Source: Treponema sp.
GTDB taxonomy: Bacteria; Spirochaetota; Spirochaetia; Treponematales; Treponemataceae
Assembly (NCBI GenBank): GCA_016290335.1
Contig: JAEETM010000014.1
Location: 1-60,146, forward strand
Direction of reading: 5' to 3'
DNA length: 60,146 nucleotides
Under the pieces are notes generated by a model, which made no database searches, was not told the origin of the DNA, and saw only the letters and a list, made by a program, of their open reading frames with translations. Shown piece after piece: positions 2,793 to 44,520 of this stretch. The position numbers were made by a program, and so were the translations under genes. Each line of letters starts with the position of its first letter. Positions within the stretch are counted from its first letter, which is position 1.

Positions 2793-4589
2793 CTAATTTA
2801 ATTTCATCGGTCTATCCAGCGGCCAGAATCGGAACATTGGTTTACCAATAATCAGCTTTTTGTTGATGTACTGAGGCCCGATAATGGAATCATACTGAAC
2901 AGACATGGAATCAGAAGCTGACAATGGAGCAGGTTCATAATCATTTGCATGGCGCAAATCGTGAGAATTAAACCTGTTGTCGCCCATCATAAAATAGCAG
3001 TCCTTTGGAATATATTGAGGATTACCATTTTCATCATCAGCAGGGAAAACAGGCATGTTACGTTCATCAAGGTAACCACGAACATACCAGTCTATATTGA
3101 TAGCATTCTGCATGTTTTCCGTAAGAACTGAATCATCATTTACAGACATTTTAGAATCCTGGCTCATAAGCTCTGCATAGCGTACAACAAGATTTCCAAA
3201 ATACAGCTTGCACATAACGTTCAGTCTGAAGTTAGCTTCGGCATACATATCGCGGGTTTTGTTTTTTTCGGATATCCAGCTTGTCATAAAATCAGAAAAC
3301 CATTTTGTTCCGCCATTTTTGCTTAAAATATCTGATGAAATATTTATTGAATTATTGAATAAATCAAACTCGTTTAATGATGGTGCAGCAAAGGTTCCGT
3401 TTTTATTTGTATAGGCTGCTGCAAGCTCATTCATTTTTATACAGAGCTCTTTAACCTTAAACTCAGTTACGGTTAAATCAAGATTACGTCTTTCTTCTTC
3501 AAGTTCAAGAAGCTTTTTGTATTGTTCCTGAGCAGAAGGATATACCTGAGCTACATTTAAAAGCTGTCCTCTTTTATTATTTCTTGGAGCTACAGTTGAT
3601 AAAGGAAAATGCTGAACCTTTGGTAAAAGCTTTTTGTTTATGGAAGTTAAATCCCAGCAAGCATATTTATTGTCGGTTTCAACCGGTTCAAAAACATCAC
3701 TCTTTGCAGTTCGCCTGTATAAAGTTCCATCCTGCATTACAAGCTGTTCTCCAGGCTCACCACAAATGCGTTTTACAAGGGGGTCAGCCTTAGGATTACC
3801 GTTTTCATCCTTGTTCAAATCAACAGCCATAATCGTAAGCATATAAACAAGCTGGCTTGTTACAGTCTTAACCTCTGATTTTCTGTCCATCTTATAATGA
3901 GGATTACGAAGAACAACTATATCGCCACGTTTATACTTTGCAAAATCAGGAAGTCCAATTTCTGTAAGCGGAAACTTAGGACCACAGCTTAGTTTTGTAA
4001 CTGCAAGTCTGTCTTTTACTAAAAGATTTGGAACCATTGATTCAGAAGGAATTACATAAAGCTGAACAAGGAAAATCTGAAGCAGAAGCACCATAAATAC
4101 AGCCTGAACAAGAGCATCAATCCAGTCTATGATTTCAAAACGAAGTCGTGCCAGACCATGGAACGTTGTTTTCTTACCGCGAACACTCCAGTTTTCTGTA
4201 ATAATAGGAAAGATTTTATCGTTCATGTAATGAGAAACTGCAAGTGAACCGTAAAAAATTGCAATCCAGAGAATTACACAAATTACATCGTACCACATGG
4301 AAGTTCCTGTTTTTCCTGCACGTCTCAATACAAAAGAAAGAAAATCTACAATTGGAAGATATTGAAGGAACTTCAAAACACAGTATTTCTTAGAACCGTC
4401 AGTTTTTTTCAACATCTTAAAATATGTAAAATAAACTGTTGCTGCTGTAAAAAACACTGATAAAGGAAATGCTATAAGAGAAATATCACCATGAAAGCTG
4501 AGTGAAAAAAGCGAGAATAAAATGCCTGCAATAAGTTCAATATAAACATTTATTGTAAAAGCACGTAATTGTTTATTATTATCTTTCAT
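2793..4589 (-). CDS. lepB: Signal peptidase I, enlarged
   Basis: Membrane serine protease that removes Sec and Tat signal peptides. There are several hydrophobic segments in the first 175 residues, then the S26 motifs: PSESMVP with catalytic Ser184, RGDIVVLRNP (221-230), VKRICGEPGE with Lys273, and MGDNRFNSHD (535-544). At 598 residues it is nearly twice the E. coli length. The excess is an N-terminal multi-span region and an insertion of about 230 residues (roughly 295-530), largely charged and probably helical, between the lysine box and the GDNR box. The ATG at 4589 lies two bases after the secA stop with GGAAG inside the secA end as ribosome binding site, so it is translationally linked to secA. 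Confidence 0.92.
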   Translation of the reverse strand: MKDNNKQLRAFTINVYIELIAGILFSLFSLSFHGDISLIAFPLSVFFTAATVYFTYFKMLKKTDGSKKYCVLKFLQYLPIVDFLSFVLRRAGKTGTSMWYDVICVILWIAIFYGSLAVSHYMNDKIFPIITENWSVRGKKTTFHGLARLRFEIIDWIDALVQAVFMVLLLQIFLVQLYVIPSESMVPNLLVKDRLAVTKLSCGPKFPLTEIGLPDFAKYKRGDIVVLRNPHYKMDRKSEVKTVTSQLVYMLTIMAVDLNKDENGNPKADPLVKRICGEPGEQLVMQDGTLYRRTAKSDVFEPVETDNKYACWDLTSINKKLLPKVQHFPLSTVAPRNNKRGQLLNVAQVYPSAQEQYKKLLELEEERRNLDLTVTEFKVKELCIKMNELAAAYTNKNGTFAAPSLNEFDLFNNSINISSDILSKNGGTKWFSDFMTSWISEKNKTRDMYAEANFRLNVMCKLYFGNLVVRYAELMSQDSKMSVNDDSVLTENMQNAINIDWYVRGYLDERNMPVFPADDENGNPQYIPKDCYFMMGDNRFNSHDLRHANDYEPAPLSASDSMSVQYDSIIGPQYINKKLIIGKPMFRFWPLDRPMKLN

Positions 4590-4591
4590 AA

Positions 4592-7429
4592 TTATCTTCC
4601 ACAGCACATCTTGTACTTTTTGCCACTTCCACATGGACACGGATCGTTACGGCCAACTTTTGGCATAGTTCTGCGAACTGTAACATTTGCACCCTGAGAA
4701 TGTGTCTGCATAGCACCGCTTGCTGCCTGTCTTCTTGCAATATCTCCATTAAAGGTTGTTGTTGCATTTCTTGAAGTTACGTTGTCAACCTGTCCGGCAC
4801 CTGCTCCTGCAGCACCACCAAAGGCCTGCATATCAGAATGCTGTGCGTTCATCTGACGTGACTGAGCTTCGAGCATCTGTCGGCGGCGTTCTGCTGCTTC
4901 CGGTGAAAGCTGGATTCTTGCCTTGAATACACGTGTCATAACAATACCACGGATATCGTTGCACATCTTGTCAAAGATATTAAAGCCGTCAATCTTATAT
5001 TCTGTAAGTGGATTCTTTGAACCGTAAGAACGGAGACTAACTGCTTCTCGCAAGCCTTCAAGAGTTTCAAGCTGATCAAGCCACTTTCTGTCTATAATCT
5101 GAACATACTGGTAGCGGATGAACATATTAAGGTTTTCTTTACCGGCAAGGGCTTCTTTTTCTGTTATATCATTCTGAAGCTCTGCAATTACAGCCTCGCG
5201 GTTAAGTCGTTCTGGTGGCAGCTGAACACCAAAGGTTGTTCGAATCTTTTCGCAAAGCTCCTGCATAGCGCTGTTATCGCGCTTGTTGTGTTTAGCGTTG
5301 TAATCATATTCATCGAACATTGCCTCAACTTCCTCTTTAGCATTGTTCATAACGCGAGCAGAAAGATTTTCATCGGCAAGGATTTCGTCACGCTGCTGGT
5401 AAATCATAGAACGCTGTTCGTTTAAAACATCATCATAATCAAGCAAGTGTTTACGAATCTCAAAGTTTCTGTCTTCAACCTTTTCCTGTGCCTTCTGGAT
5501 TCCTTTGTTGAGCCAAGGATGGTCAATTGGTTCGCCCGGCTGCATACCGATTCGGCTCATCATAACCTTCATTCGCTCGCCACCGAACAGTCGCATCAAA
5601 TCATCATCCATAGAGATGTAGAACTTTGAACGTCCAGGGTCACCCTGCCGTCCAGATCGACCGCGCAACTGGTTATCAATTCGGCGTGATTCGTGTCGTT
5701 CAGTACCGATTACATACAAACCGCCGGCTGCACGAACCTCTTCGTAATCCTTTTTCCAGTTTTCTTTTTCAATTGCAAGAGCTGCCTTGTACTGTTCTTC
5801 TGTAGCATTTGTACCGGCACGTTTTCTTGCACGGAACTCAGGGTTACCGCCAAGCTTAATATCTGTACCACGACCAGCCATATTTGTTGCAATTGTGATG
5901 GCGCCTTTAGCACCAGCTTCTGCAATAATCAAAGCTTCGCGTGCATGATTCTTAGCATTCAAAACCTCGTGTCTCAAACCTTTTCGGGTAAGAAGGGCAG
6001 AAAGTCTTTCTGATTTTTCAACCGAAACTGTACCAACAAGAACTGGCTGACCTTTATCGTGGGCTTCCTTTATTTCTTTTGCAATTGCTTCCCATTTATC
6101 TGCTTCGTTTAGGTAAACTTCATCATTTTCATCAATACGGGCAACAGGAAGATTTGTTGGAATCGAAACTACGTCGAGTTTATAGATTTTATTGAACTCA
6201 ACTGCTTCTGTAGTGGCAGTACCAGTCATACCGGAAAGCTTGTTATACATACGGAAATAGTTCTGGTAAGTTACAGTAGCCATTGTTCGGTTGCGCTGTG
6301 CAATTCGGATATGCTCTTTTGCTTCAATTGCCTGGTGCAAACCATCTGAATAACGGCGGCCTTCAAGAACACGACCGGTAAACTCATCAATAATCATTAC
6401 TTGACCGTCTTTTACCATGTAGTCAACATCAATTTTGAATAAAAGATGAGCTTTTAAAGCCTGTGTAAAGTAGTGTGTATACTCAAAGTTTTCTTCATCC
6501 TCAAGTTCACCGCGAATAAGGTTATGTTTATGAAGGATTTCGTTGATGTGGCTCATACCCTTATCGGTAAAAGAAACACGTTTGCCTTTTTCATCAACAG
6601 TGTAGTCACCAGGGATTGCGGCACGCTCTTCAGGAGTCATAAAGGTTTCATCAGGATATTCGCCTGTTTTAGGGTCCTTTGGAACTTCCGTAAGCTCACC
6701 AACGTATTTATCAACCTCGTGATATTTGTAAGTATCATCTTCGCCTGCACCGGAAATAATAAGTGGAGTACGGGCTTCATCAATCAAGATAGAGTCAATT
6801 TCGTCGACAATACAATAATTAAAGCCGCGCTGAACCTTCTGTTTAAGGTCAACCTTCATGTTGTCACGAAGATAGTCAAAGCCGAACTCACTGTTTGTAC
6901 CATAGGTAATGTCGCAGTTATAAGCTGCACGGCGGGCATCATTATCCATATTGGAAAGGATTGCACCAACTGTCTGTCCAAGATAACCAAAAACAGGGCG
7001 CATTGTGTTTGCATCTCGTTCTGCAAGGTAATCGTTTACTGTTACAACGTGAACGCCTTTTCCGGTAAGGCTGTTTAAGTAGGCTGGGGCAACGGCAACA
7101 AGTGTTTTACCTTCACCAGTTTTCATTTCGGTGATTCTTCCTGAATGAAGTACGATTGCACCAAGAATCTGAACGTCAAAATATCGTTCACCACGGACTC
7201 GGGAAGCAGCTTCCCTTACAAGAGCAAAGGCTTCCGGCAGGATATCGTCAAGAGTTTTTCCGTTTGCAAGCTCTTCCTTAAAGCGTTTTGTCTGCTCCGG
7301 GAACTCTTCTGGTTTTAGGGATTTAGCCCATTCTTCCTTAGCGTTTACAGCTTCAAGAATTGGCTGGATGGCTTTTAGGTCTCTGTCGTTCTGAGAGCCG
7401 AAAAAGAAGGTTAAAACTTTATCTAACAT
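4592..7429 (-). CDS. secA: Preprotein translocase ATPase SecA
   Basis: The motor of the Sec translocon. The 945-residue protein has the usual order: Walker A MKTGEGKT (102-109), the DEAD-type IVDEID, helicase motifs including [13 protein letters not shown] and the [10 protein letters not shown] arginine-finger motif, and the C-terminal zinc-binding tail [15 protein letters not shown] that contacts SecB or the ribosome. AAGGAAA precedes the ATG. An Ala/Gly/Gln-rich linker ([18 protein letters not shown]...) lies before the zinc tail. It is followed directly by lepB, giving an export operon: translocation motor plus signal peptide removal. Confidence 0.98.
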
Positions 7430-7533
7430 TTTATTTTCCTTGATTATTTATTTCGTTTTTAGTCATACAATTATATAGAATATACATATAAAATACTAGA
7501 TTTAGTGGTGATAAGGCAATAAAAAAAAGTGTC

Positions 7534-7625
7534 ATTGTCGAACTTGATTCGACAATCTCTAAGAGATATTCGGGTCGAGCCCGAATATGACAACAAATGA
7601 TAATCCTGAATATGACAACAAATGA
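7534..7625. repeat. REP-like hairpins between secA and the 7667 lipoprotein
   Basis: Two full hairpins and a partial one. The first is ATTGTCGAA, loop CTTGA, TTCGACAAT (7534-7556). The second is ATATTCGGG, loop TCGAG, CCCGAATAT (7566-7588), followed by GACAACAAATGA. A third, half copy (CCTGAATATGACAACAAATG) starts near 7605. The two full stems differ in sequence but each is fully paired. Confidence 0.7.
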
Positions 7626-7630
7626 AAAGG

Positions 7631-7659
7631 TTGAGAATAAGCCTGTACTTCTGTATAAT
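7631..7659 (+). promoter_or_regulatory. Sigma70-type promoter of the 7667 lipoprotein gene
   Basis: TTGAGA (7631-7636), 17 bp, TATAAT (7654-7659), then seven bases to the ATG at 7667 with no ribosome binding site. Both boxes and spacer are near consensus, so a leaderless transcript is predicted. An in-frame ATG at 7622 lies upstream of the -35 box and is not expected to be transcribed from here. Confidence 0.75.
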
Positions 7660-7666
7660 GTATGTT

Positions 7667-8887
7667 ATGAAAAAACACTTAATCGTTCTTGCAATTTCGA
7701 CCTTAATTTTGCCGCTGCTTTTTATGGGGTGCGGCAGAAACTCGACTATTCAATCTATAAATGAAACTGAACTTTTTTCGCTTTCTTATGGTAATTTTGA
7801 AGAGCAGCTTAGTGTAGCGGATTTAAATGAAGTTGGTTCAGTAAGAACTGGAATTGCAATGAGGGATGGTTTTTTCTATATAATCGACGGTTATGCCAAA
7901 AAGACTATGGAGCTTAATTCCTATGGCGACCTTCTTACACTTTTTTATAACGAGGATGCAGAAATTAAAAGCCTGCTGGAAAAGTCAAAAAAAGCGGCAG
8001 AAAGTATTCACAGGGAGATTTCTTATCCTTTTGATTATCCCGGTTTGATTGCTATTGATTCAAACAAGTGTATTTATACGGCCTGTACAATTCCCAAAAA
8101 CAGGCGGGAGCAGGGAGAAGGCGGAATCCTTTATTCTCAGGCGGTGCTAAGGTTTGCGCGTGATGGTTCTTCTATGGATTATATAGGGCAGCAGGGACCG
8201 GGTGGAACTCCTTTTCCTTATATCAAAAATATTTATACAACCCAGAAGGATGAGCTTGTTGTAGTTTGCAGCTCTACAGAAGGTCCTGTTGTATACTGGT
8301 TTGGGGCCAATGGCTTTTTAAAATATATGGTGCCAATCAATACAAAAAATGCCCCTTTAATCAATGGAACAGATTCAGAATCTGAAGTTTTCCTTACAAT
8401 TGAAAATGTTATTCCGGACTTAGTTTCTTATAAATTGTACGTTAAGATTGATTATTATTCTTCTTTTGTTGATGAAGATTCAAAGGTTCAGTCGGGAATC
8501 AATTATCTTCAGACAATTCTTTATTCGCTGGATGTAGAAACTGGACTTTATTCAGATTCAACTTCAATCCCGCCTTACGAAGAATCTGTTGTTGTAGATT
8601 ACAGTAAGCTTACCTATAAGATTCCTTATGATTTTTTGGGAGTTACGGAAAGTGGCTGGAAGTTTTTTATTGTAAAAACTGATGACGGCTTTAATATAGA
8701 AATGATACAGAGTGAATCTCAAAAAATGTTGAGACGTCATTTTAATGTAAATCATAATGAAAATCTTTTTTATACAATGGCACTTACTCAGGATGGTATA
8801 ATCACTGCACTATATATGGATAAGGAAAAGCCGCGTGTTGTCTGGTACAGGACCGATAGTCTTATAGATTCAATTATAAAAGGCTGA
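7667..8887 (+). CDS. Lipoprotein, possible beta-propeller
   Basis: A 406-residue lipoprotein. The signal peptide MKKHLIVLAISTLILPLLFMG is followed by the lipobox cysteine (LFMGC). The mature part has repeated motifs of the type found in propeller proteins (GFFYIIDGYAKKTMELNSYG, IAIDSNKCIYTA, RFARDGSSMDYIGQQGPGG, DELVVVCS), consistent with 6-bladed NHL-like repeats, but I could not assign a family. It should be anchored in the inner or outer membrane. Two small membrane genes follow closely, which suggests a shared envelope role. The start at 7667 is set by the promoter and by the Lys-Lys n-region. Confidence 0.75.
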   Translation: MKKHLIVLAISTLILPLLFMGCGRNSTIQSINETELFSLSYGNFEEQLSVADLNEVGSVRTGIAMRDGFFYIIDGYAKKTMELNSYGDLLTLFYNEDAEIKSLLEKSKKAAESIHREISYPFDYPGLIAIDSNKCIYTACTIPKNRREQGEGGILYSQAVLRFARDGSSMDYIGQQGPGGTPFPYIKNIYTTQKDELVVVCSSTEGPVVYWFGANGFLKYMVPINTKNAPLINGTDSESEVFLTIENVIPDLVSYKLYVKIDYYSSFVDEDSKVQSGINYLQTILYSLDVETGLYSDSTSIPPYEESVVVDYSKLTYKIPYDFLGVTESGWKFFIVKTDDGFNIEMIQSESQKMLRRHFNVNHNENLFYTMALTQDGIITALYMDKEKPRVVWYRTDSLIDSIIKG

Positions 8888-32319: not shown

Positions 32320-32349
32320 TTGAAAAAGTTGCTAGCAAATGCCGATAAT
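32320..32349 (+). promoter_or_regulatory. Promoter of the secreted protein gene at 32359
   Basis: TTGAAA (32320-32325), 18 bp, GATAAT (32344-32349), nine bases to the ATG and no Shine-Dalgarno sequence. It faces the thiI promoter region (TATACT, minus strand, 32311-32306); the two overlap in about 60 bp. Confidence 0.6.
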
Positions 32350-32358
32350 CTAAGATAT

Positions 32359-33408
32359 ATGAAAAAAGGATTTTCAGTTTTACTGGCTTTATTTTTTCTT
32401 TTTCCTGTGTTTTCCAGTGATTTACCTGAGCCTTTGCTTGGGATTTGGGAAGGCAAGGATAGATTTGTTTTCTTTGAACAGCAGCCGGAAAATGAAAATC
32501 CTGAACTTGTGATAATTCTTAAGGAATATTACGGCTGGTATTTTGACAGAGCCGCAGAACCTGAGTCTTTTGCAGAAAGGGAAACCCGTACACGAAATGC
32601 CGCAACTCATAAAACAGCTGAATATATTCCTTATAAAATAGACGATTTTACTTCTGATGATGACAGCTGCTCCTTTGAAATGATTACAACTTATTCAAAA
32701 CATGAAAAAAACTATATCCCGGCGGCCATCATAAAAGGAAGATTATTCATCGATTTTTATAAAAAAGACCCGCAATACAATCAAAATAATCAGAAGTTAT
32801 ATGATGAAAAAGGAAATCTTACAATAACAGAAAACGGTTACTGGATTGGCAACATTGATACACGTGGTTTTACATTAAACTCACAGGTTATTGATACAAA
32901 CATCGGGCTGCTCGTAGTTGACGGTGCAAAAATGTATGATATTCGTTACTGGCTCAGTGATGTCGAAATGCGCGATGAACGTGATAAATCCGTTATTTTT
33001 GAATATGAAAATGATGAATACATTGTTCCAAAATATCTTTTTTATGCGAATAATCAGTATACAAATGTCCATGGAAGAAGTAAAAAAATAAGAAATACGC
33101 AGGGTCCTGTTAATTTTGAACCTGCAGAATACTATTTTAATGCAAACAAAACCTTAATGGCTAAAAAAGATAAAGAATATCTGATTAAGATTGTTGATAA
33201 AAATGATTTTGAAGCCTTAATGAATATTGTAAAAGCCGCAAACTCAAGGCGTAAGCCTGATCCGCCTCCATTATTCCCGCCAAAGGAATTAGACTGGCAC
33301 TGGGACTTAATTGATTATCTGGAAAAAGACAATATTCTTGTACAGCAGGTTAGGGAAAGACAGAGAGCGTTTGGTGTGCGTGGAAAAGAGCTTAATCCTC
33401 CACGTTAG
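32359..33408 (+). CDS. Secreted protein of unknown function
   Basis: A 349-residue protein with a signal peptide (MKKGFSVLLALFFLFPVFSS, cleavage probably near DLPEP) and no lipobox, so periplasmic or outer-surface. The N-terminal third resembles a lipocalin-like or "GIWEGKDRFVFFEQQP" type beta sheet; the C-terminus is Pro-rich (KPDPPPLFPPKELDWHWDL) and basic. I do not recognise a family. The in-frame ATG at 32320 overlaps the -35 box and is not used. It precedes the two-component genes but with its own 65-bp gap. Confidence 0.7.
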   Translation: MKKGFSVLLALFFLFPVFSSDLPEPLLGIWEGKDRFVFFEQQPENENPELVIILKEYYGWYFDRAAEPESFAERETRTRNAATHKTAEYIPYKIDDFTSDDDSCSFEMITTYSKHEKNYIPAAIIKGRLFIDFYKKDPQYNQNNQKLYDEKGNLTITENGYWIGNIDTRGFTLNSQVIDTNIGLLVVDGAKMYDIRYWLSDVEMRDERDKSVIFEYENDEYIVPKYLFYANNQYTNVHGRSKKIRNTQGPVNFEPAEYYFNANKTLMAKKDKEYLIKIVDKNDFEALMNIVKAANSRRKPDPPPLFPPKELDWHWDLIDYLEKDNILVQQVRERQRAFGVRGKELNPPR

Positions 33409-33475: not shown

Positions 33476-35284
33476 ATGAAAGGAAAGCATTCACATTTTT
33501 TTTACAAATTAAATGATATTCCTATTAGAAAAAGTATCCGCGTTTTATTCCTTCTGTTTTTCCTTGTTCCGGTAATTACAGTTTCTGCTATATGCTGTTT
33601 TTTCCTTTTTGATGAAATGCTCAAAAAAGAAATGAGCGACATTCAGAAAAACCTTGAACAGACAGAACTTGTTTTTGACAATACACTGCGCCAGATAAAG
33701 AAGCTTTCAGACAGGATTTATGTAAACAGGCAGCTTCAGACTGTAATGCTCAAAGAGTATAAAAACATTCAGGATGTATATTCTGATTATGCTGCAATGA
33801 CATTTTTTGAAAATTATCTGCAGACCTACAATGAAGTTGCCAGCTACAGAATATATACGGAAAATCAGACGCTTCTTGATAATCAGTTTATAATCAAGGC
33901 TGATAAAAACATAATGGCAGAAGAATGGTACCAGAATGCAAAGCTATACAGCGGACAGGCTTACTGGGTTTATAAAACAGACAGCATTTCTAAAAAGAAA
34001 TATCTTTCGCTGATACGTTCAATCTGGAGTACTTCTACAGGGCAATTCTGCGGTGTTCTTGTAATAAACATTGCCCCTGATGTAATTGAAAAAAATCTTT
34101 CAAATCTTTTTTATAAAACTGTAATAACTTACGACAATACAATTTTGTATACTTCAATTGAAGATCTGGCAGAAGAAGATGAAAAAACTCTGATTGAATA
34201 TACAATGAATCCTGTAAACAAAAGCAAAATACAAACCATAAAATTGAACAATGAAAAGGTAGGACTTTTTCACGAAAAGTTTGTTCCAAAAAATACAATT
34301 TCAATTTATTTTTCAATCATTTATATTATTCCGATTTTCGAACTTACAAAGGTTACGCTCAAAATACTTGCAATTCTTGTTGTTGTAATTATTCTTTTAA
34401 TCAGCTTTTCTTTCCTTGTACTTACAATCTTTTCTAACTATATAGACAGGCGTGTAAGTAAGGTTCAGATTGGAATTACGAAAGTTGTAGAAAACAATCT
34501 TGAAATTGAACCTACAATTGGCGGTAAAGATGAGTTTGAACAGATTTATGAATCTATTTACGAAATGTCTGCAAACCTTAAGGAATTAATAAACAAGCTT
34601 TATGTTCAGAATCTGGAAAAGGAACAGCTTGCATCACGCCAGAATGAAATAAGCCTAAAAATGCTTTCTACTCAAATAAATCCTCACTTTCTTTTTAATA
34701 CGCTTGAAACTATACGAATGAAGGTAATTGCTTCGGGAGAGAAGGATGTTGCACTTATGTTGAAGCTTCTGGCTTCTTTATTGCGGTACAACCTTTCTGT
34801 AAAAGGTCAACCAGGGCCGCTCATAGATGAATTAAATGCGGTTCAGAATTATCTTACAATTCAGCACATGCGTTTTGGGGAGCGTGTTTCTTATGATGTT
34901 ATGACTATGTGTGATATAACTAACATAAAGGTGCTTCCGTTTTTAATTCAGCCGATTGTAGAAAACTCATTCAGTCACGGACTTGAAGATAAAGTATCCG
35001 GCGGTTTTATTTACATAATTATCAATATGGAAAATAATGATGTAAATGCGCAGAATATTTTGAGCATTGAAGTAAAGGATAATGGCTGTGGCATACCGGA
35101 AGATAAGCTGGCAGATTTAAACGAAAAGCTAACCTGCAGCAAGCCTGAGGATTATTCATCTTCCATAGGATTAATAAATGTTCAGTCCAGAATAAAATTA
35201 TTCTACGGGCAGGAATACGGTATTTCAATTGAAAGTCAGCTTGGAGAAGGTACTTCGGTTAAGATAAAGATTCCAGTAATCTAA
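33476..35284 (+). CDS. YesM/LytS-type sensor histidine kinase
   Basis: A 602-residue membrane kinase. Span 1 is near residues 20-43 (IRVLFLLFFLVPVITVSAICCFFLF), followed by a periplasmic sensor region of about 230 residues (EMLKKEMSDIQKNLEQTELVFD...), a second span near 292-320, and a HAMP linker. The kinase core is of the His_kinase/YesM type: TQINPHFLFNTLETIR with His404, then an ATPase domain with VENSFSHGLEDK, VKDNGCGIPEDKL and SSIGLINVQSRI. YesM kinases typically control carbohydrate-uptake genes. The partner regulator follows 28 bp downstream. Confidence 0.93.
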   Translation: MKGKHSHFFYKLNDIPIRKSIRVLFLLFFLVPVITVSAICCFFLFDEMLKKEMSDIQKNLEQTELVFDNTLRQIKKLSDRIYVNRQLQTVMLKEYKNIQDVYSDYAAMTFFENYLQTYNEVASYRIYTENQTLLDNQFIIKADKNIMAEEWYQNAKLYSGQAYWVYKTDSISKKKYLSLIRSIWSTSTGQFCGVLVINIAPDVIEKNLSNLFYKTVITYDNTILYTSIEDLAEEDEKTLIEYTMNPVNKSKIQTIKLNNEKVGLFHEKFVPKNTISIYFSIIYIIPIFELTKVTLKILAILVVVIILLISFSFLVLTIFSNYIDRRVSKVQIGITKVVENNLEIEPTIGGKDEFEQIYESIYEMSANLKELINKLYVQNLEKEQLASRQNEISLKMLSTQINPHFLFNTLETIRMKVIASGEKDVALMLKLLASLLRYNLSVKGQPGPLIDELNAVQNYLTIQHMRFGERVSYDVMTMCDITNIKVLPFLIQPIVENSFSHGLEDKVSGGFIYIIINMENNDVNAQNILSIEVKDNGCGIPEDKLADLNEKLTCSKPEDYSSSIGLINVQSRIKLFYGQEYGISIESQLGEGTSVKIKIPVI

Positions 35285-35311: not shown

Positions 35312-38300
35312 ATGCTTAATTATTTTATTGCAGATGATGAAGAGATTATTCGCAACGGATTAAAATGCATTATTGACTGGAAAGATTGTGGCTTTATGCT
35401 TTGCGGAGAAGCTTCCAACGGAAAAGATGCCGTCAGCCAGATTATTGATTTACGCCCGCATCTTGTTATGCTTGATATAAAAATGCCTGGAATGACTGGT
35501 ATTGATGTAATAAAACAGGTGACTGAATATTTTACAAAAAATAATCTTACACTTCCTGCTTTTATTATTCTTACAGGCTTTTCCGAGTTTGAGTTTGCAA
35601 AGGATGCTTTAAATTATGGTGCAAAAGCATATCTTTTAAAACCAGTAGATGAAGATGAACTGGAAAAAAATGTACGCAATATTGCAAAAGAAATAAACGA
35701 ACAGAAAAATCTTAAGGAAAACTCAAAGAACGCAAAAGAGCTTGAAACTAAAGATTATCTTTTAAAACTGATTAAAACAGAAGCTTCGCAGGAAATGAAA
35801 AATCCTACAGATTCTGTTTTTTTTGATGATTCAGAAAACTCGTTCTATCGGGCTGTAATCTTTAATCTTGATTATTATCCTGCAGAGTATAAAAAAGAGC
35901 TTAGTAAAGCAATAAATAATTATTTTTCATTTTTTACAAAAGTATTAATGAATCAAAACGAAGATATTCTTTTAATTATAAAAACCTCTAACGCAAAAGG
36001 GGTGAAGAATTGCATAGAAAGAGTTGCCTCGCTCCATGAAACAAGAACATTTATAACAAGTGGAGAAAACTGTAAAGGACTGGATGGTCTTGTAAAGTCT
36101 TACAATCAGGCAACGGAAAACAAAAAGTTCCTGTTTTACTTTGATAAAGAAAAATGCATAAGCCCGGAATTATCGGTTTCAAATCAGAATCTCAAAGAAA
36201 ACAGCCAGTCAGAAGAAAAAGAACAAAGTGAGTTTACACTAACAGTAAATAAACATATAGAAACTTTGATTTTCTGCATTGAAACTTATGATAAGAAAAA
36301 GCTGGAAAGTACAAAAAAAGAATTGTATGAATGTTTTTTCAAGCCGGTACTTTCTGAATCGGTAACAAAGAAAAACATTATCTACTGTCTTCTTGAGCTC
36401 AGGAACAGAATTACTTCAAAGTATCCTCAGCGAGATATTACGGATGGTTCGACGTTTGATGTAGTTCCTAATATCCTTGAAAAGAAAACCTTTGAACAGG
36501 TGTTTGAATATTTTACAAACGTTCTTGATGCTTTTATTGAAAACTTTAATTTTAATACTGCTGATTCTGTAATTGTAAAAGTGATTGCGTATGTAAAGGC
36601 AAATTACACGCAGGACTTAAAGCTTGAAGCTCTGGGTGATATGTTCAACTGTAACAGTGCGTATCTTGGAAAAAGGTTTAAAAAATATACAGGCCAGCAG
36701 TTTAACACTTATCTTGATAACCTGAGGATTGAAGATGCAAAGGATAAGCTGTTAAACACTGACTTAAAGATTTATCAGATTTCAAAACTTGTAGGTTATG
36801 CAAATACCGATTACTTTTTTATGAAGTTTAAAAAGAGTACGGGAATGACTCCTAAGGAGTTTAAAAACGGAAGCTCTGAAAATACAGATTCTACGGACAG
36901 TACCGGTAAGGGCAGCGGAAAAAAATCACTTATCCTTATGCTGTTTATGATTGCCTGTGTTTTTATTTCATGTAATAAAAAGCCAAAGGAAATTGTAGAA
37001 GAACCAGTAACCTTTACTTTTTTCTCATCAGATTTATCAAAGCCGCAGTATTTCAATGACCTGATTGCAAAAGAAATTACAAAGCGTACAGGCGTAACAC
37101 TCAAGTTTGAATATTCCACAGAAACTCCGGACGATGCAATAAATCTTATGATTGCAAATGCAAATTATCAGGATTTTATTTACGCAAAAGGAAATCTTTC
37201 AAAGCTTATTGAACAGAATGCAGTAATAAAGCTTGATGAATATATAGAAAAATACGGCCAGAATATGAAAAAGCTTTACGGCGACCAGCTTTCGCGCCTG
37301 AGGTATACTCTGGATAATCCGTACATTTATTCTGTTGGAACTTACGAAATAAAAAATAAAGTTATGGAAGTTTCAGGTAACATGCCGATTCAAAATGCCG
37401 TGCTTAAAGAGTTTGGTTATCCGCGTATTAAAACTCTTGAAGATTACGAAAACATTCTGCTGGCATATATGAAAAAATATCCGGAAATAAACGGACATAA
37501 GACAATAGGTATTTCGCTTGTTACAGACAGCTGGTACTGGTATCTTGGGCTTTCAAATCCCGGAAACTATGTAATAGGGTATCCTGATGATGGGCAGTGG
37601 ATTGTAAACCAGGAAACAATGGAAGCTACCTATAAGTTTTTGTATCCGGAAATGAAGCTGTTTTACAAATGGCTTAATAAGATTTATCACGAAGGACTTC
37701 TAGACCCGGAAAGCTTTACTCAGGATATAGATGTGTGGAACTCAAAGCTGAAAGACGGATATGTACTTGGAACAAGCTATCCATATTGGGGCTTAAAGGA
37801 TATAAACAGGTATCTTGTTCAAAATGATCTGGACCAGAGAACGTTTGCTTTTCTTCCGGTAACATATAATGAAAATTACAAGGACCCGGCCTTAAAAGAT
37901 TACGGTTATTCAGGCGGTTGGGGAATTGCAATTTCAAAAGATTGTAAGAACCCTGTAAGGGCATTTAAGTTTCTTGACTGGATGTGTTCGGAAGAAGCAC
38001 AGATTCTTGTAAACTGGGGAATTGAAGGCAAACATTATTATTATGATAAAAATGGACGTAGAGTTGCTTATCCGAATATTGATGAAAATGATGGGGTAGG
38101 AAGATACATTTATCCTTTCCCGGAAGCGGGTGGCGGTTATATAGATTCTACCGGAAACCCAATGGCAAAGCTTTATAAAGAAAACATAATTGAAAATTAT
38201 TCTTCTGCAGAAAAAGAAACACTTTCTGCTTACGGTGCCGAGCTTTGGGCAGATCTTTTTCCAACATCTCAGGAGCTTGGTGTTTCAAAGCATGGTCAGG

Positions 38301-38518
38301 TCTGGCAGTATCCGCTTTCTTCACAGATGACAAAAGTAATAAGCGAAGTTGATGATTATGTAAAAGAAAGCCTCATAAAAATGATTCTTGCGCCTGAAAA
38401 AGATTTTGATGCAAACTGGGAAGAAATGCGTGAAAATATCATAAAAATGGGGATGATTGAAATAAACAATCAGTGTACAGAGTTAATTAAAATGAAGATG
38501 AAGCTCTGGGAAAAATAA
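35312..38518 (+). CDS. Response regulator (REC + AraC HTH) fused to a lipoprotein-type solute-binding protein
   Basis: One uninterrupted 1068-residue frame. Residues 1-125: receiver domain with acidic DDEE (8-11), phospho-acceptor Asp55 in LVMLDIKMPG, and conserved Lys in AYLLKPVDE. About 125-410: YesN-type middle region. About 413-520: two AraC-type helix-turn-helix motifs (LEALGDMFNCNSAYLGKRFK; IYQISKLVGYANTDYFFMKF). About 521-538: Gly/Ser/Thr/Asp linker ending in KK. About 539-553: hydrophobic helix leading to a lipobox-like FISC, Cys554. About 560-1068: family-1 extracellular solute-binding protein (VTFTFFSSDLSKPQYF, DQLSRLRYTLDNPYIYSVG, GYSGGWGIAISKDCKNPVRAFKFLDWMCSEEA). AAGGGGG precedes the ATG. 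Both halves have the full length of their separate families. No good internal start or ribosome binding site exists near the junction. Confidence 0.9.
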   Translation: MLNYFIADDEEIIRNGLKCIIDWKDCGFMLCGEASNGKDAVSQIIDLRPHLVMLDIKMPGMTGIDVIKQVTEYFTKNNLTLPAFIILTGFSEFEFAKDALNYGAKAYLLKPVDEDELEKNVRNIAKEINEQKNLKENSKNAKELETKDYLLKLIKTEASQEMKNPTDSVFFDDSENSFYRAVIFNLDYYPAEYKKELSKAINNYFSFFTKVLMNQNEDILLIIKTSNAKGVKNCIERVASLHETRTFITSGENCKGLDGLVKSYNQATENKKFLFYFDKEKCISPELSVSNQNLKENSQSEEKEQSEFTLTVNKHIETLIFCIETYDKKKLESTKKELYECFFKPVLSESVTKKNIIYCLLELRNRITSKYPQRDITDGSTFDVVPNILEKKTFEQVFEYFTNVLDAFIENFNFNTADSVIVKVIAYVKANYTQDLKLEALGDMFNCNSAYLGKRFKKYTGQQFNTYLDNLRIEDAKDKLLNTDLKIYQISKLVGYANTDYFFMKFKKSTGMTPKEFKNGSSENTDSTDSTGKGSGKKSLILMLFMIACVFISCNKKPKEIVEEPVTFTFFSSDLSKPQYFNDLIAKEITKRTGVTLKFEYSTETPDDAINLMIANANYQDFIYAKGNLSKLIEQNAVIKLDEYIEKYGQNMKKLYGDQLSRLRYTLDNPYIYSVGTYEIKNKVMEVSGNMPIQNAVLKEFGYPRIKTLEDYENILLAYMKKYPEINGHKTIGISLVTDSWYWYLGLSNPGNYVIGYPDDGQWIVNQETMEATYKFLYPEMKLFYKWLNKIYHEGLLDPESFTQDIDVWNSKLKDGYVLGTSYPYWGLKDINRYLVQNDLDQRTFAFLPVTYNENYKDPALKDYGYSGGWGIAISKDCKNPVRAFKFLDWMCSEEAQILVNWGIEGKHYYYDKNGRRVAYPNIDENDGVGRYIYPFPEAGGGYIDSTGNPMAKLYKENIIENYSSAEKETLSAYGAELWADLFPTSQELGVSKHGQVWQYPLSSQMTKVISEVDDYVKESLIKMILAPEKDFDANWEEMRENIIKMGMIEINNQCTELIKMKMKLWEK

Positions 38519-38527
38519 GGCTGTAAA

Positions 38528-39148
38528 TTATTCTTCAGTTTCTGTTTCTGCTTGAGCTTTTGCTTTTTCGCGTTCTTCTTTCTTTTCCAAAAGATTTCTT
38601 GCTCTCTGTAAGCGTGGTACATTATAGCGAAGAATCATATAAGGCAGCATACTGAGAATAAAGTTTATAATGCAGGCTGGAAAAGGAATAATTAACCAGT
38701 ATTTAAGCGGATAACACAGAATCAGAAGAAAACCAAGAATTGCATTTGCCAGATGAATTACAGCGCCGTAATTACATTCAAGAATAAATCTTTCCATGTA
38801 TTCACGGCTGTGTGGATCTGCAATTGTTTTTTTACTGAAGCTTGTAAAAACACCAAGTTCCAGTACCTTGTCTTTCCAATGCTTTATGCCAAGCTTTTCG
38901 TAAAACTTACATTCTGCTTTAGAAACATTATGAAGCTTTACATTATAACTGAACCATTTTTCCGGCAGGCAGCGTCTTATAAAGGTTGCGAGTACACCAT
39001 CAATTGCAATAACAACAATTGCTGCAAGAATGGACGCAATGATGATGTAGGGTACTGTAAGTTCAGGAAAATAATTTCTGCTGAACAAAAGATTAAACAA
39101 AATTATAAGGGCATCGCCGCCAATGATTGAAATTAAATATAAAGCCAT
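38528..39148 (-). CDS. Membrane protein resembling CrtO-type glycosyl-lipid acyltransferases
   Basis: A 206-residue protein with four predicted spans: LYLISIIGGDALIILFNLLF, IIIASILAAIVVIAIDGVL, GAVIHLANAILGFLLILCYPL and IIPFPACIINFILSMLPYMIL. The cytoplasmic stretch KFYEKLGIKHWKDKVLELG followed by SREYMERFILECNYGAVIH resembles the glycosyl-4,4'-diaponeurosporenoate acyltransferase family. The C-terminus is a charged tail (KKEEREKAKAQAETETEE). AGGAA precedes the ATG. It lies 18 bp downstream of a GT8 glycosyltransferase gene, so a role in a modified glycolipid is plausible. Family assignment is moderate. Confidence 0.65.
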   Translation of the reverse strand: MALYLISIIGGDALIILFNLLFSRNYFPELTVPYIIIASILAAIVVIAIDGVLATFIRRCLPEKWFSYNVKLHNVSKAECKFYEKLGIKHWKDKVLELGVFTSFSKKTIADPHSREYMERFILECNYGAVIHLANAILGFLLILCYPLKYWLIIPFPACIINFILSMLPYMILRYNVPRLQRARNLLEKKEEREKAKAQAETETEE

Positions 39149-44200: not shown

Positions 44201-44520
44201 ACCTCAAGGTTCTTAATGATGGAACACTTACAGTTGGTCTTGATACAAAGGTTACCGACGAGCTGAAAAAAGAAGGCTATGTCCGCGACTTAATCAGAGG
44301 TATTCAGAATCAGCGTAAGGAAAACGGCTATAATGTTACCGACAGAATTAAGATTGTTCTTTCCGGTGATGAAAAACTCAAGGATGCTTATTCAATGTTC
44401 TCTGAGTTTATTTCAAGCGAAACACTGGCCGTTGATATAAGCTGGAAAGATTCAATTGCAGACGGAATCGCTATTGAAGCTGATGATAAAACATGGAGCA
44501 TTTTGATTGAAAAAGCTTAA
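41299..44520 (+). CDS. ileS: Isoleucyl-tRNA synthetase, eukaryotic-like type
   Basis: A 1073-residue class I synthetase. The HIGH motif is PHFGH (55-59) and the KMSKS motif is exact (623-627). The opening (KVNFPEKEEEVLKFWENNGIF, FYDGPPFATGLPHFGH) and the long C-terminal region without the zinc knuckle of the E. coli enzyme mark the type-2, eukaryotic-like IleRS, a form associated in other bacteria with mupirocin resistance. The editing domain TTPWTLPSN is intact. AAAAGGG precedes the ATG. A lipoprotein gene overlaps its stop. Confidence 0.97.
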   Translation: MSFKPVDPKVNFPEKEEEVLKFWENNGIFKKSLSQREGAEEFVFYDGPPFATGLPHFGHFIPSTIKDIIPRYQTMKGKHVERRFGWDCHGLPIENLIEKELNINSKHEIEAMGIDKFNEACRASVLRYTSEWRQTITRMGRWVDFDNDYKTMNPEYMESIWWVAKSLWDKGLIYEGKYILPYCPRCSTVLSTHELAQGYKDVQDPTVTVRFKVTKAPAGVKDPDMANGKTYFLAWTTTPWTLPSNLGLCMGPDIDYVKILDKESGDYYIFAEARLSAYYKSEEGYEIIYRAKGKDFVDAEYEPLFPYFENLKDPAVCTAETNQKCEKGAFRMFNAAYVSTEDGTGIVHIAPAFGEEDNKVFRGSGVPNVEPIDAECKFTKEVYDYEGRFVKECDKDIIARLKNEGKLVKRDTVVHSYPHCWRCGSPLIYRGIGSWFVKVADYHDKLLNANSKINWQPNHIKEGRFGKWLAGSRDWAVSRNRYWGNPMPIWRCDDPDCKNAVCVGSRQELKDLSGTYPEDLHKQFVDKITFTCPKCKKGTMRRIPEVFDCWFESGSMPYAQVHYPFENKEKFEANFPANFISEGLDQTRGWFYTLTVLAAQLFDKPAFENCIVNGIVLANDGRKMSKSLHNYTDPVDAINMFGADAIRLFLMHSAVVKADEIRYSDDGVRDILKSIIIPWWNSYSFFVTYANIDKVSPTGHLFDEKTPSNPLDAWLLSITQNLVKEVGAALDAYDLSAAIDPIVKFIDELNNWYIRRSRRRFWKSENDNDKTEAYEALYIALKTLAKTAAPFVPFITEEMYQNLKNPEDKESVHLCDYPEPNKDWINEALEFKMATVQKAVSMGHSLRNTFNLKNRQPLANVALVTRNAEEKKVLAEMEDCIREELNVKEVIFHEREDELVEYKAKANFKVLGKELGPKMKAAAGIIATLTSEQIQSILDGTKLTIDVEGTSVELDSEKVLVERFEKDDLKVLNDGTLTVGLDTKVTDELKKEGYVRDLIRGIQNQRKENGYNVTDRIKIVLSGDEKLKDAYSMFSEFISSETLAVDISWKDSIADGIAIEADDKTWSILIEKA

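Follow-up and report, generated by a model that had tools for sequence, protein, structure and literature searches.

How is a lipoprotein signal handled that lies in the middle of a protein chain, behind a cytoplasmic part of 536 residues, and is it processed at all? This question is raised by a gene in a 60,146-nucleotide (nt) stretch of Treponema DNA (contig JAEETM010000014.1 of assembly GCA_016290335.1, in the following the window), in which a YesN-type response regulator and a solute-binding protein (SBP) are encoded as a single chain just downstream of a YesM-type kinase. Unless it is cut apart, this fusion would place the sensor on one side of a membrane and the switch on the other, and either outcome is informative, namely a two-product precursor that spans two compartments or a response regulator that is permanently wired to its own receptor. 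As an answer we propose, with a confidence that is about even, that the locus encodes a three-component sensor for oligosaccharides without a permease, whose genes for regulator and SBP have been fused and yield a two-product precursor that is cut at Cys554.

A regulator and a solute-binding protein in one frame

The frame at 35312–38518 of the forward strand runs uninterrupted over 1068 codons plus stop, exactly with the coordinates and the length that a sequence-only reading of the window had given. Both the frame and the Pfam matches (Response_reg 5–121, HTH_18 443–519, SBP_bac_8 585–897 and SBP_bac_1 576–897) bear out the claim of that reading that a REC-AraC regulator and an SBP are encoded together behind a YesM-type kinase. 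The domains follow the order REC, AraC, a 17-residue polar linker, Lys-Lys (KK), a 15-residue hydrophobic stretch, Cys554 and SBP; the codons 520–553 are free of stops, and Cys554 is encoded by TGT at 36971–36973. The parts of the gene are listed below, with omega as the dN/dS ratio against the homologous locus L001.

35312–38518, forward strand: fused regulator–SBP gene, 1068 amino acids (aa); frame, Pfam, and the fused homologues P0002, P0003 and L001
35312–35686, forward strand: REC receiver domain, residues 1–125, with the phospho-acceptor Asp55 at 35474–35476; Pfam, omega 0.025
35687–36601, forward strand: middle region of the YesN-type regulator, residues 126–430; omega 0.104
36638–36868, forward strand: AraC-type HTH_18 DNA-binding domain, residues 443–519; Pfam, omega 0.035 over residues 431–519
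36869–36919, forward strand: polar linker, residues 520–536, differing in length, in frame, among the fused alleles; allele alignment
36920–36973, forward strand: internal lipoprotein-type signal with Lys537-Lys538, hydrophobic residues 539–553 and Cys554; sequence and the signal peptides of relatives
36971–38515, forward strand: SBP, 515 aa counted from Cys554; Pfam, and sequence and fold relatives that bind oligosaccharides

The regulator half has the N-terminal REC with phospho-acceptor Asp and the AraC helix-turn-helix that characterize the YesN type, but the AraC domain does not form the C-terminus of the chain. The REC domain keeps D8, D9, D55, T88 and K110, which we take to be its active-site set, and a GGDEF_2 match under the curated cut-off has been found in the middle region of L001 and P0003. 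No kinase domain has been detected by Pfam inside the fusion; the kinase is a separate open reading frame (ORF), so the single chain of a hybrid two-component system (HTCS) is not encoded here. The SBP half belongs to families 1/8, as SBP_bac_1/8 exceed the Pfam cut-off and the SBP fold is matched. The strongest sequence match is 9pmy_A (E 1.1e-116), followed at greater distance by 5xs8, 5gub and the alginate-binding AlgQ2, while Foldseek has returned 5gx8, 5gub (a chondroitin-disaccharide complex), FusA and AlgQ2. Since these relatives bind oligosaccharides, the ligand is probably an oligosaccharide as well.

Conservation of the fusion

A search of ∼5.8 billion protein sequences, limited to 0.55–1.75 times the query length and to candidates with common short words, has given 64 proteins, of which two span the whole query and the next covers 48%. 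The two whole-length homologues, P0002 (99%, 25 member sequences) and P0003 (91%, 1075 aa, 3 members), are protein records without gene context. A third fused allele of 1059 aa has come from scanning genomes with the SBP alignment, where the best 80 of 266 stretches correspond to 78 loci; the top locus, L001, belongs to Treponema sp. RGIG8034, a metagenome-assembled genome from buffalo rumen (G001). Among the relatives found, the fusion is restricted to this small group of gut Treponema.

The comparison of the window with L001 has shown synonymous divergences (dS) of 0.68 in REC, 1.11 in the middle region, 1.07 in AraC and 0.83 in the SBP, and dN/dS values of 0.025, 0.104, 0.035 and 0.038, respectively. 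The linker is looser (dN/dS 0.29, 14 codons compared) and contains a four-codon gap that keeps the frame, and the middle region has a gap of five codons; from KEFK to KK the polar linkers measure 18 residues in the window, 14 in L001 and 24 in P0003. Judged by the low dN/dS and the in-frame gaps at dS 0.68–1.11, both halves and the joint reading frame have persisted despite considerable divergence, and purifying selection acts on each half. The flanking proteins ThiI, GT8, AGPAT, IleRS and u206 are 88–93% identical between the two loci and u362 67%, from which window and L001 likely represent different species.

These data bear directly on the suspicion that two ordinary genes merely look joined, a stop or frameshift having been lost by an error of sequencing or assembly. 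The metagenomic origin of L001 and the existence of separate homologues speak for such an error, yet the same open junction recurs in P0002 with its 25 sequences, in P0003 and in L001, with linkers that differ, and on these three diverged alleles an artefact is rejected as extremely improbable. A stop or frameshift near 36870–36940, which the sequence-only reading had proposed to look for, is thus not supported. Its other refuting condition, that all close homologues have separate genes, fails for the closest relatives, which are fused, and holds further out, where P0066 (SBP, 81%) and P0186 (regulator, 74%) are separate proteins.

Origin from separate genes

The same chromosomal place carries the unfused genes in other Treponema. 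The order ThiI, u362, kinase, regulator, SBP, GT8/AGPAT and IleRS is found whole or largely in L002–L006, L009 and L125, where regulator and SBP occupy two ORFs; the thiI...ileS flanks recur in L127, their left part in L137, and their IleRS side in L008 and L138. Of 200 genomes of the genus surveyed, 37 match at E ≤1e-100, and a single match over residues 1–1068 occurs only in G001. Two matches are present in 24 of the 37, and in 18 of these regulator and SBP adjoin as separate genes; in the others a permease-type ORF precedes the SBP (G019, G021, G139 and G168), the SBP starts at a contig end (G174), or the genes lie on different contigs (G046). The remaining 12 genomes show one partial match. 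Where the two genes are adjacent (21 loci, the geometry having been measured on loci up to L060), the first possible SBP start lies between 44 nt before and 107 nt after the regulator stop; the ORFs overlap in 15 of the 21 cassettes, six of them by 4 nt, and are separated by gaps of 5–107 nt in the other six.

In an SBP tree of 76 rows with a midpoint root (L041, a 349-aa piece, L061–L078 and the loci of the genus survey being left out), the three fused rows form one clade with a support of 100/99, and its sister is P0066, a 536-aa SBP without a regulator. The half of the tree that holds this clade comprises 38 rows, namely 19 regulator-adjacent, three fused and 16 without read context, and none that is permease-linked, whereas the other half consists of 26 permease-linked, two regulator-linked, two kinase-linked and eight other rows. 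As judged from the single clade and from the separate genes at the same thiI...ileS place in seven loci, the fusion is derived from separate regulator and SBP genes. Two genes that overlap in the majority of the separate relatives, probably with translational coupling there, have thereby become one frame. As an observation on the separate regulators, that of L125 (G144, 6721–7866) has only 381 aa, with REC and AraC present by Pfam and the middle region shortened.

The solute-binding half as a probable partner of the kinase

Whether the SBP serves sensing or transport has been approached through its gene neighbours and through the kinase that precedes the fusion:

33476–35284, forward strand: YesM/LytS-type sensor kinase with transmembrane segment, extracytoplasmic sensor domain, transmembrane segment, His_kinase and HATPase_c; Pfam and predicted structure

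The transmembrane segments of the kinase have been assigned from the long helices of an AlphaFold2 (AF2) model (mean pLDDT 79.5, pTM 0.49) together with the sequence. Its core resembles GanS (6swj, TMt 0.81, top among the single-domain matches), and its sensor part resembles the extracellular kinase domain 8w7p (TMt 0.69) and Tlp3 chemoreceptor domains (TMt 0.55–0.60), the latter of dCache type. The phospho-acceptor His404 (34685–34687) is invariant in 26 of 26 aligned kinases, so that with the REC residues named above those needed for the suggested phosphorylation of REC by this kinase are kept. Directly 5′ of the kinase, at 32320–33408, lies a function-unassigned protein with no Pfam family above cut-off, which finds a match of 38–67% identity in all ten relatives that show the thiI side.

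With 12 permease queries from related loci, tblastn (covering the window, L001–L061 and L125–L127) has found no permease in the 60-kb window, and the Pfam analysis of 30 further window ORFs, a part of its ORFs, has found no ABC permease family, in line with the earlier statement that none lies nearby. Equally, none has been detected in L001–L011, L013–L015, L025, L026, L028, L029, L032–L034, L060 and L125–L127, nor around any of the 21 separate cassettes, some of whose contigs are short, so that the absence is local; L021, L035 and L041 have also given none and are contigs that begin at or near the SBP. Permease pairs are found in L012, L017–L020, L022–L024, L027, L030, L031, L036–L039, L042–L047, L049–L059 and L061, a single permease in L048, and pairs on the opposite strand in L016 and L040. 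The neighbourhood of the fusion, in which an SBP stands beside a LytS/YesM-type kinase and a YesN regulator outside a transporter operon, fits a three-component system, and because the kinase-regulator-SBP cassettes are free of permeases, a role in sensing is likelier for the SBP than one as a subunit of a transporter.

Two natural losses of genes point to the kinase as the partner of the SBP. In G126 (L127, 5741–8071) the kinase of the same locus is reduced to 245 aa without membrane and sensor part and the SBP gene is absent, with the regulator kept; conversely, L016 (5923–9548) and L040 (6112–9590) hold kinase and SBP side by side, divergent from an operon of permeases and SBP on the opposite strand, and no regulator match has been found within 17.5 kb. 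The suggestion that the SBP half acts as an extracytoplasmic sugar sensor is therefore upheld as far as sensing is preferred to transport, but a partnership with the kinase, for which CuaD-CuaS-CuaR is a precedent, appears likelier than an independent second input into the regulator.

That the SBP half might still serve transport through permeases encoded elsewhere, the fusion coupling nothing more than expression, is suggested by the permease pairs beside the SBP in L012, L017 and most Firmicutes loci, and by 28 PF00528 matches in G001, to which the genome-wide searches of the fused lineage refer. We regard it as quite improbable, given that the tree half of the fusion is devoid of permease-linked rows and that the window has yielded no permease. 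A paralogous group of kinases and regulators (L128–L134) has been set aside, as no SBP match occurs in its 4–14 kb and its sensor is 24–34% identical. In L128 the ORF before the kinase matches AAA-ATPase_like (Pfam, this locus only), and ORFs with the same N-terminus occupy that place in L129–L133.

The joint: processing or tether

The features of a lipoprotein signal, i.e., a positive n-region, a hydrophobic stretch and a lipobox-type Cys, are all present in the SBP half, but internally rather than at an N-terminus. In 45 separate SBPs of the family (P0066–P0111 without the truncated P0097), the last charged residue and the Cys are a median of 15 residues apart (range 3–21, the 3 being due to an internal Glu), and the number of Lys/Arg before the hydrophobic stretch has a median of 2 and a minimum of 0 (P0086). 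Window and P0003 show 15 uncharged, mostly hydrophobic residues after KK, L001 has the same length by alignment, and all 29 rows chosen for the alignment share the Cys. No ATG, GTG or TTG occurs among the linker codons ahead of KK in the window or L001, so that separate initiation at Met543 would give an SBP without the lysines. From the absent linker start codons and the kept signal length and Cys, it is most likely that the former signal peptide is still used, now from an internal position.

An internal translation start, by which the SBP would also be made separately from Met543 or Met546 with the long product as a by-product, is an unlikely alternative, which the in-frame ATGs at residues 543/546 of the window and 534/537 of L001 would allow. 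The signal segment (36920–36970) also differs between window and L001 by only two synonymous changes at 11.2 sites, compared with 154 at 307.7 in the SBP; this could hint at an RNA constraint, and the sample is very small and too little to build on. At neither ATG is a Shine-Dalgarno-like 4-mer found, in the window or L001, whereas 10 of 15 separate SBP starts have one; this control is weak, as five of the 15 also lack the motif and the starts have been chosen by hand. A signal from Met543 would moreover contain no Lys/Arg, against the median of two in the separate SBPs, although P0086 manages with none.

The simplest reading of the joint is that it forms a substrate of Lgt/LspA. The proposed mechanism would thus proceed from the former signal peptide, surviving as KK, 15 hydrophobic residues and Cys554: the chain would insert with its N-terminus inside and its C-terminus outside, Cys554 would be lipidated, and signal peptidase II would cut before it. 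The predicted products are the SBP as a lipoprotein and the regulator bearing a short hydrophobic tail at its C-terminus, which a site-2 protease may trim. The SBP half, being exported, would act as the ligand-binding partner of the kinase, ligand would alter kinase activity, REC would be phosphorylated at Asp55, and the AraC domain would control target genes elsewhere; a two-product precursor would also fix the ratio of SBP to regulator. Signal peptidase II has been found in four of four genomes tested, G001 included, and site-2 protease in G001 and in 174 of 196 genomes of the genus. The latter had first appeared in one of four genomes as a possible peculiarity of the fused one, and with the wider search it is ordinary. 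In E. coli, RseP has been reported to clear remnant signal peptides (PMC8144685).

A stable membrane-tethered transcription factor has to be weighed against this, in which the chain remains uncut, or is cut on signal only, REC-AraC is held beside the kinase with the SBP across the membrane, and DNA is bound at the membrane. Ligand would then reach the regulator by two routes, one via the kinase and one via the regulator's own tether, which comes near to the model of the sequence-only reading. Keeping the fusion over dS 0.68–1.11 with in-frame length changes is in favour of such a tether, as an incidental fusion need not be kept, and so are the flexible polar linkers of the three alleles. The AF2 model of the fusion places a helix at 536–553 after a low-confidence linker, as a tether would have it, although this model is weak here: it has been built from 29 fused and SBP rows with three over the regulator half, most of which, with long stretches of pLDDT <50, is unreliable and has not been used. 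A combined alignment of regulators, SBPs and fusions has been dropped, as in its 20 regulator rows 350–392 residues fell on the SBP half, against 30 on the regulator half. The best 19-residue hydropathy mean of the joint is 1.87, at residue 536, with only 15 uncharged residues; a stretch of 15 is short for a lasting membrane span and equals the median of the family signal peptides, and the Cys is invariant. We consider the tether possible, at clearly less than even confidence. The claim of a lasting signal anchor has consequently lost ground: cutting before Cys554 is favoured, its likelihood being no lower than that of a stable tether, because the joint has the length and the Cys of the relatives' lipoprotein signal peptides.

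Between both stands a rather speculative arrangement, in which a response regulator with its own extracytoplasmic sugar receptor would remain uncut or be cut conditionally. Kinase, receptor and transcription factor would work together in a single complex at the membrane, and the regulator would be freed when, depending on ligand, signal peptidase II cuts at Cys554 and a site-2 protease acts next; if this is true, lipoprotein maturation is a signalling switch.

Several points weigh against the two-product precursor as a dedicated sensor. More than 500 residues of regulator precede the signal that Lgt/LspA would have to process, and if the parts are simply cut apart, the keeping of the fusion is unexplained beyond stoichiometry. 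Given the PF00528 matches of G001, the SBP could still serve a transporter encoded elsewhere. The joint loss of sensor part and SBP is a single case, and L016 and L040 represent one clade of two. Complete thiI...ileS flanks are missing from 14 of the 21 separate cassettes: L008 has an ileS piece only, and no such flanks are found near the cassettes L007, L010, L011, L013–L015, L025, L026, L028, L029, L032–L034 and L060, so the cassette sits elsewhere too, and the permease-free, regulator-linked L025 and L060 fall into the permease half of the SBP tree.

Other genes of the window

Three further genes have been noted. At 38528–39148 of the reverse strand, a small protein matches Pfam CrtO (glycosyl-4,4′-diaponeurosporenoate acyltransferase, PF18927), with neighbours that resemble a glycosyltransferase and an acyltransferase. 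Right after ileS, a lipoprotein-like ORF at 44507–45454 matches TP0453 (outer membrane-associated lipoprotein, PF20740). Within 2793–7429 of the reverse strand, an ORF of 615 aa, in which two stretches match Peptidase_S26 (signal peptidase), overlaps that of secA.

Comparison with known systems

A search of the literature, limited to CC-licensed PMC papers, has found no paper on membrane-bound response regulators and, among the titles and opening lines of abstracts listed, no system of this fused form, and within the limits of this and the sequence searches the earlier statement that none has been described still stands. Several known arrangements resemble it in part. In Bacteroides HTCS such as BT1754, a carbohydrate sensor and an AraC output are carried on one membrane-spanning chain; the kinase is part of that chain and the sensor is N-terminal, whereas in the present case the kinase is a protein of its own and the sensor C-terminal. 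Regulators of the CadC/ToxR type share the layout of a cytoplasmic N-terminal DNA-binding half, one hydrophobic segment and an extracytoplasmic C-terminal half, but the cytoplasmic half is here a REC-AraC response regulator and the segment resembles a lipoprotein signal. The cytochrome b/c1 precursor FbcH, which is the subject of none of the papers listed in the literature search, joins two functional proteins through an internal signal sequence and is not a lipoprotein precursor; in contrast, the lipobox-type Cys of the present fusion points to signal peptidase II.

Closer in composition are the other permease-free cassettes of Treponema (for example L002–L011 and L013–L015), which have homologous genes in the same order, those of L002–L006, L009 and L125 at the same thiI...ileS locus, but keep regulator and SBP as two genes. 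This class of permease-free SBP with a YesM/YesN pair has been seen here across many gut Treponema genomes, and a natural fusion that links the SBP to the regulator of its own cassette supports the view that such SBPs are dedicated sensors. A precedent is found in Ruminiclostridium cellulolyticum, where CuaD (SBP), CuaS and CuaR (538 aa, YesN/AraC) have been reported as a three-component system and CuaD as binding the extracellular part of CuaS; similar systems of Clostridium beijerinckii and Geobacillus stearothermophilus are cited in the Discussion of the same paper (PMC10384115). In both CuaDSR and the Treponema locus a lipoprotein-type SBP, a sensor kinase and a YesN/AraC regulator are encoded together, with the SBP apart from transport, and CuaR has the same plan of REC, 318 aa and AraC as the regulator of the fusion (PMC10384115). 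The likeness extends to G. stearothermophilus, as the kinase domain here matches GanS best (6swj). The contact between SBP and kinase, reported for CuaD and CuaS, is a prediction from the genes here, and the three separate proteins of CuaDSR are reduced to two, with SBP and regulator on one chain that processing could separate.

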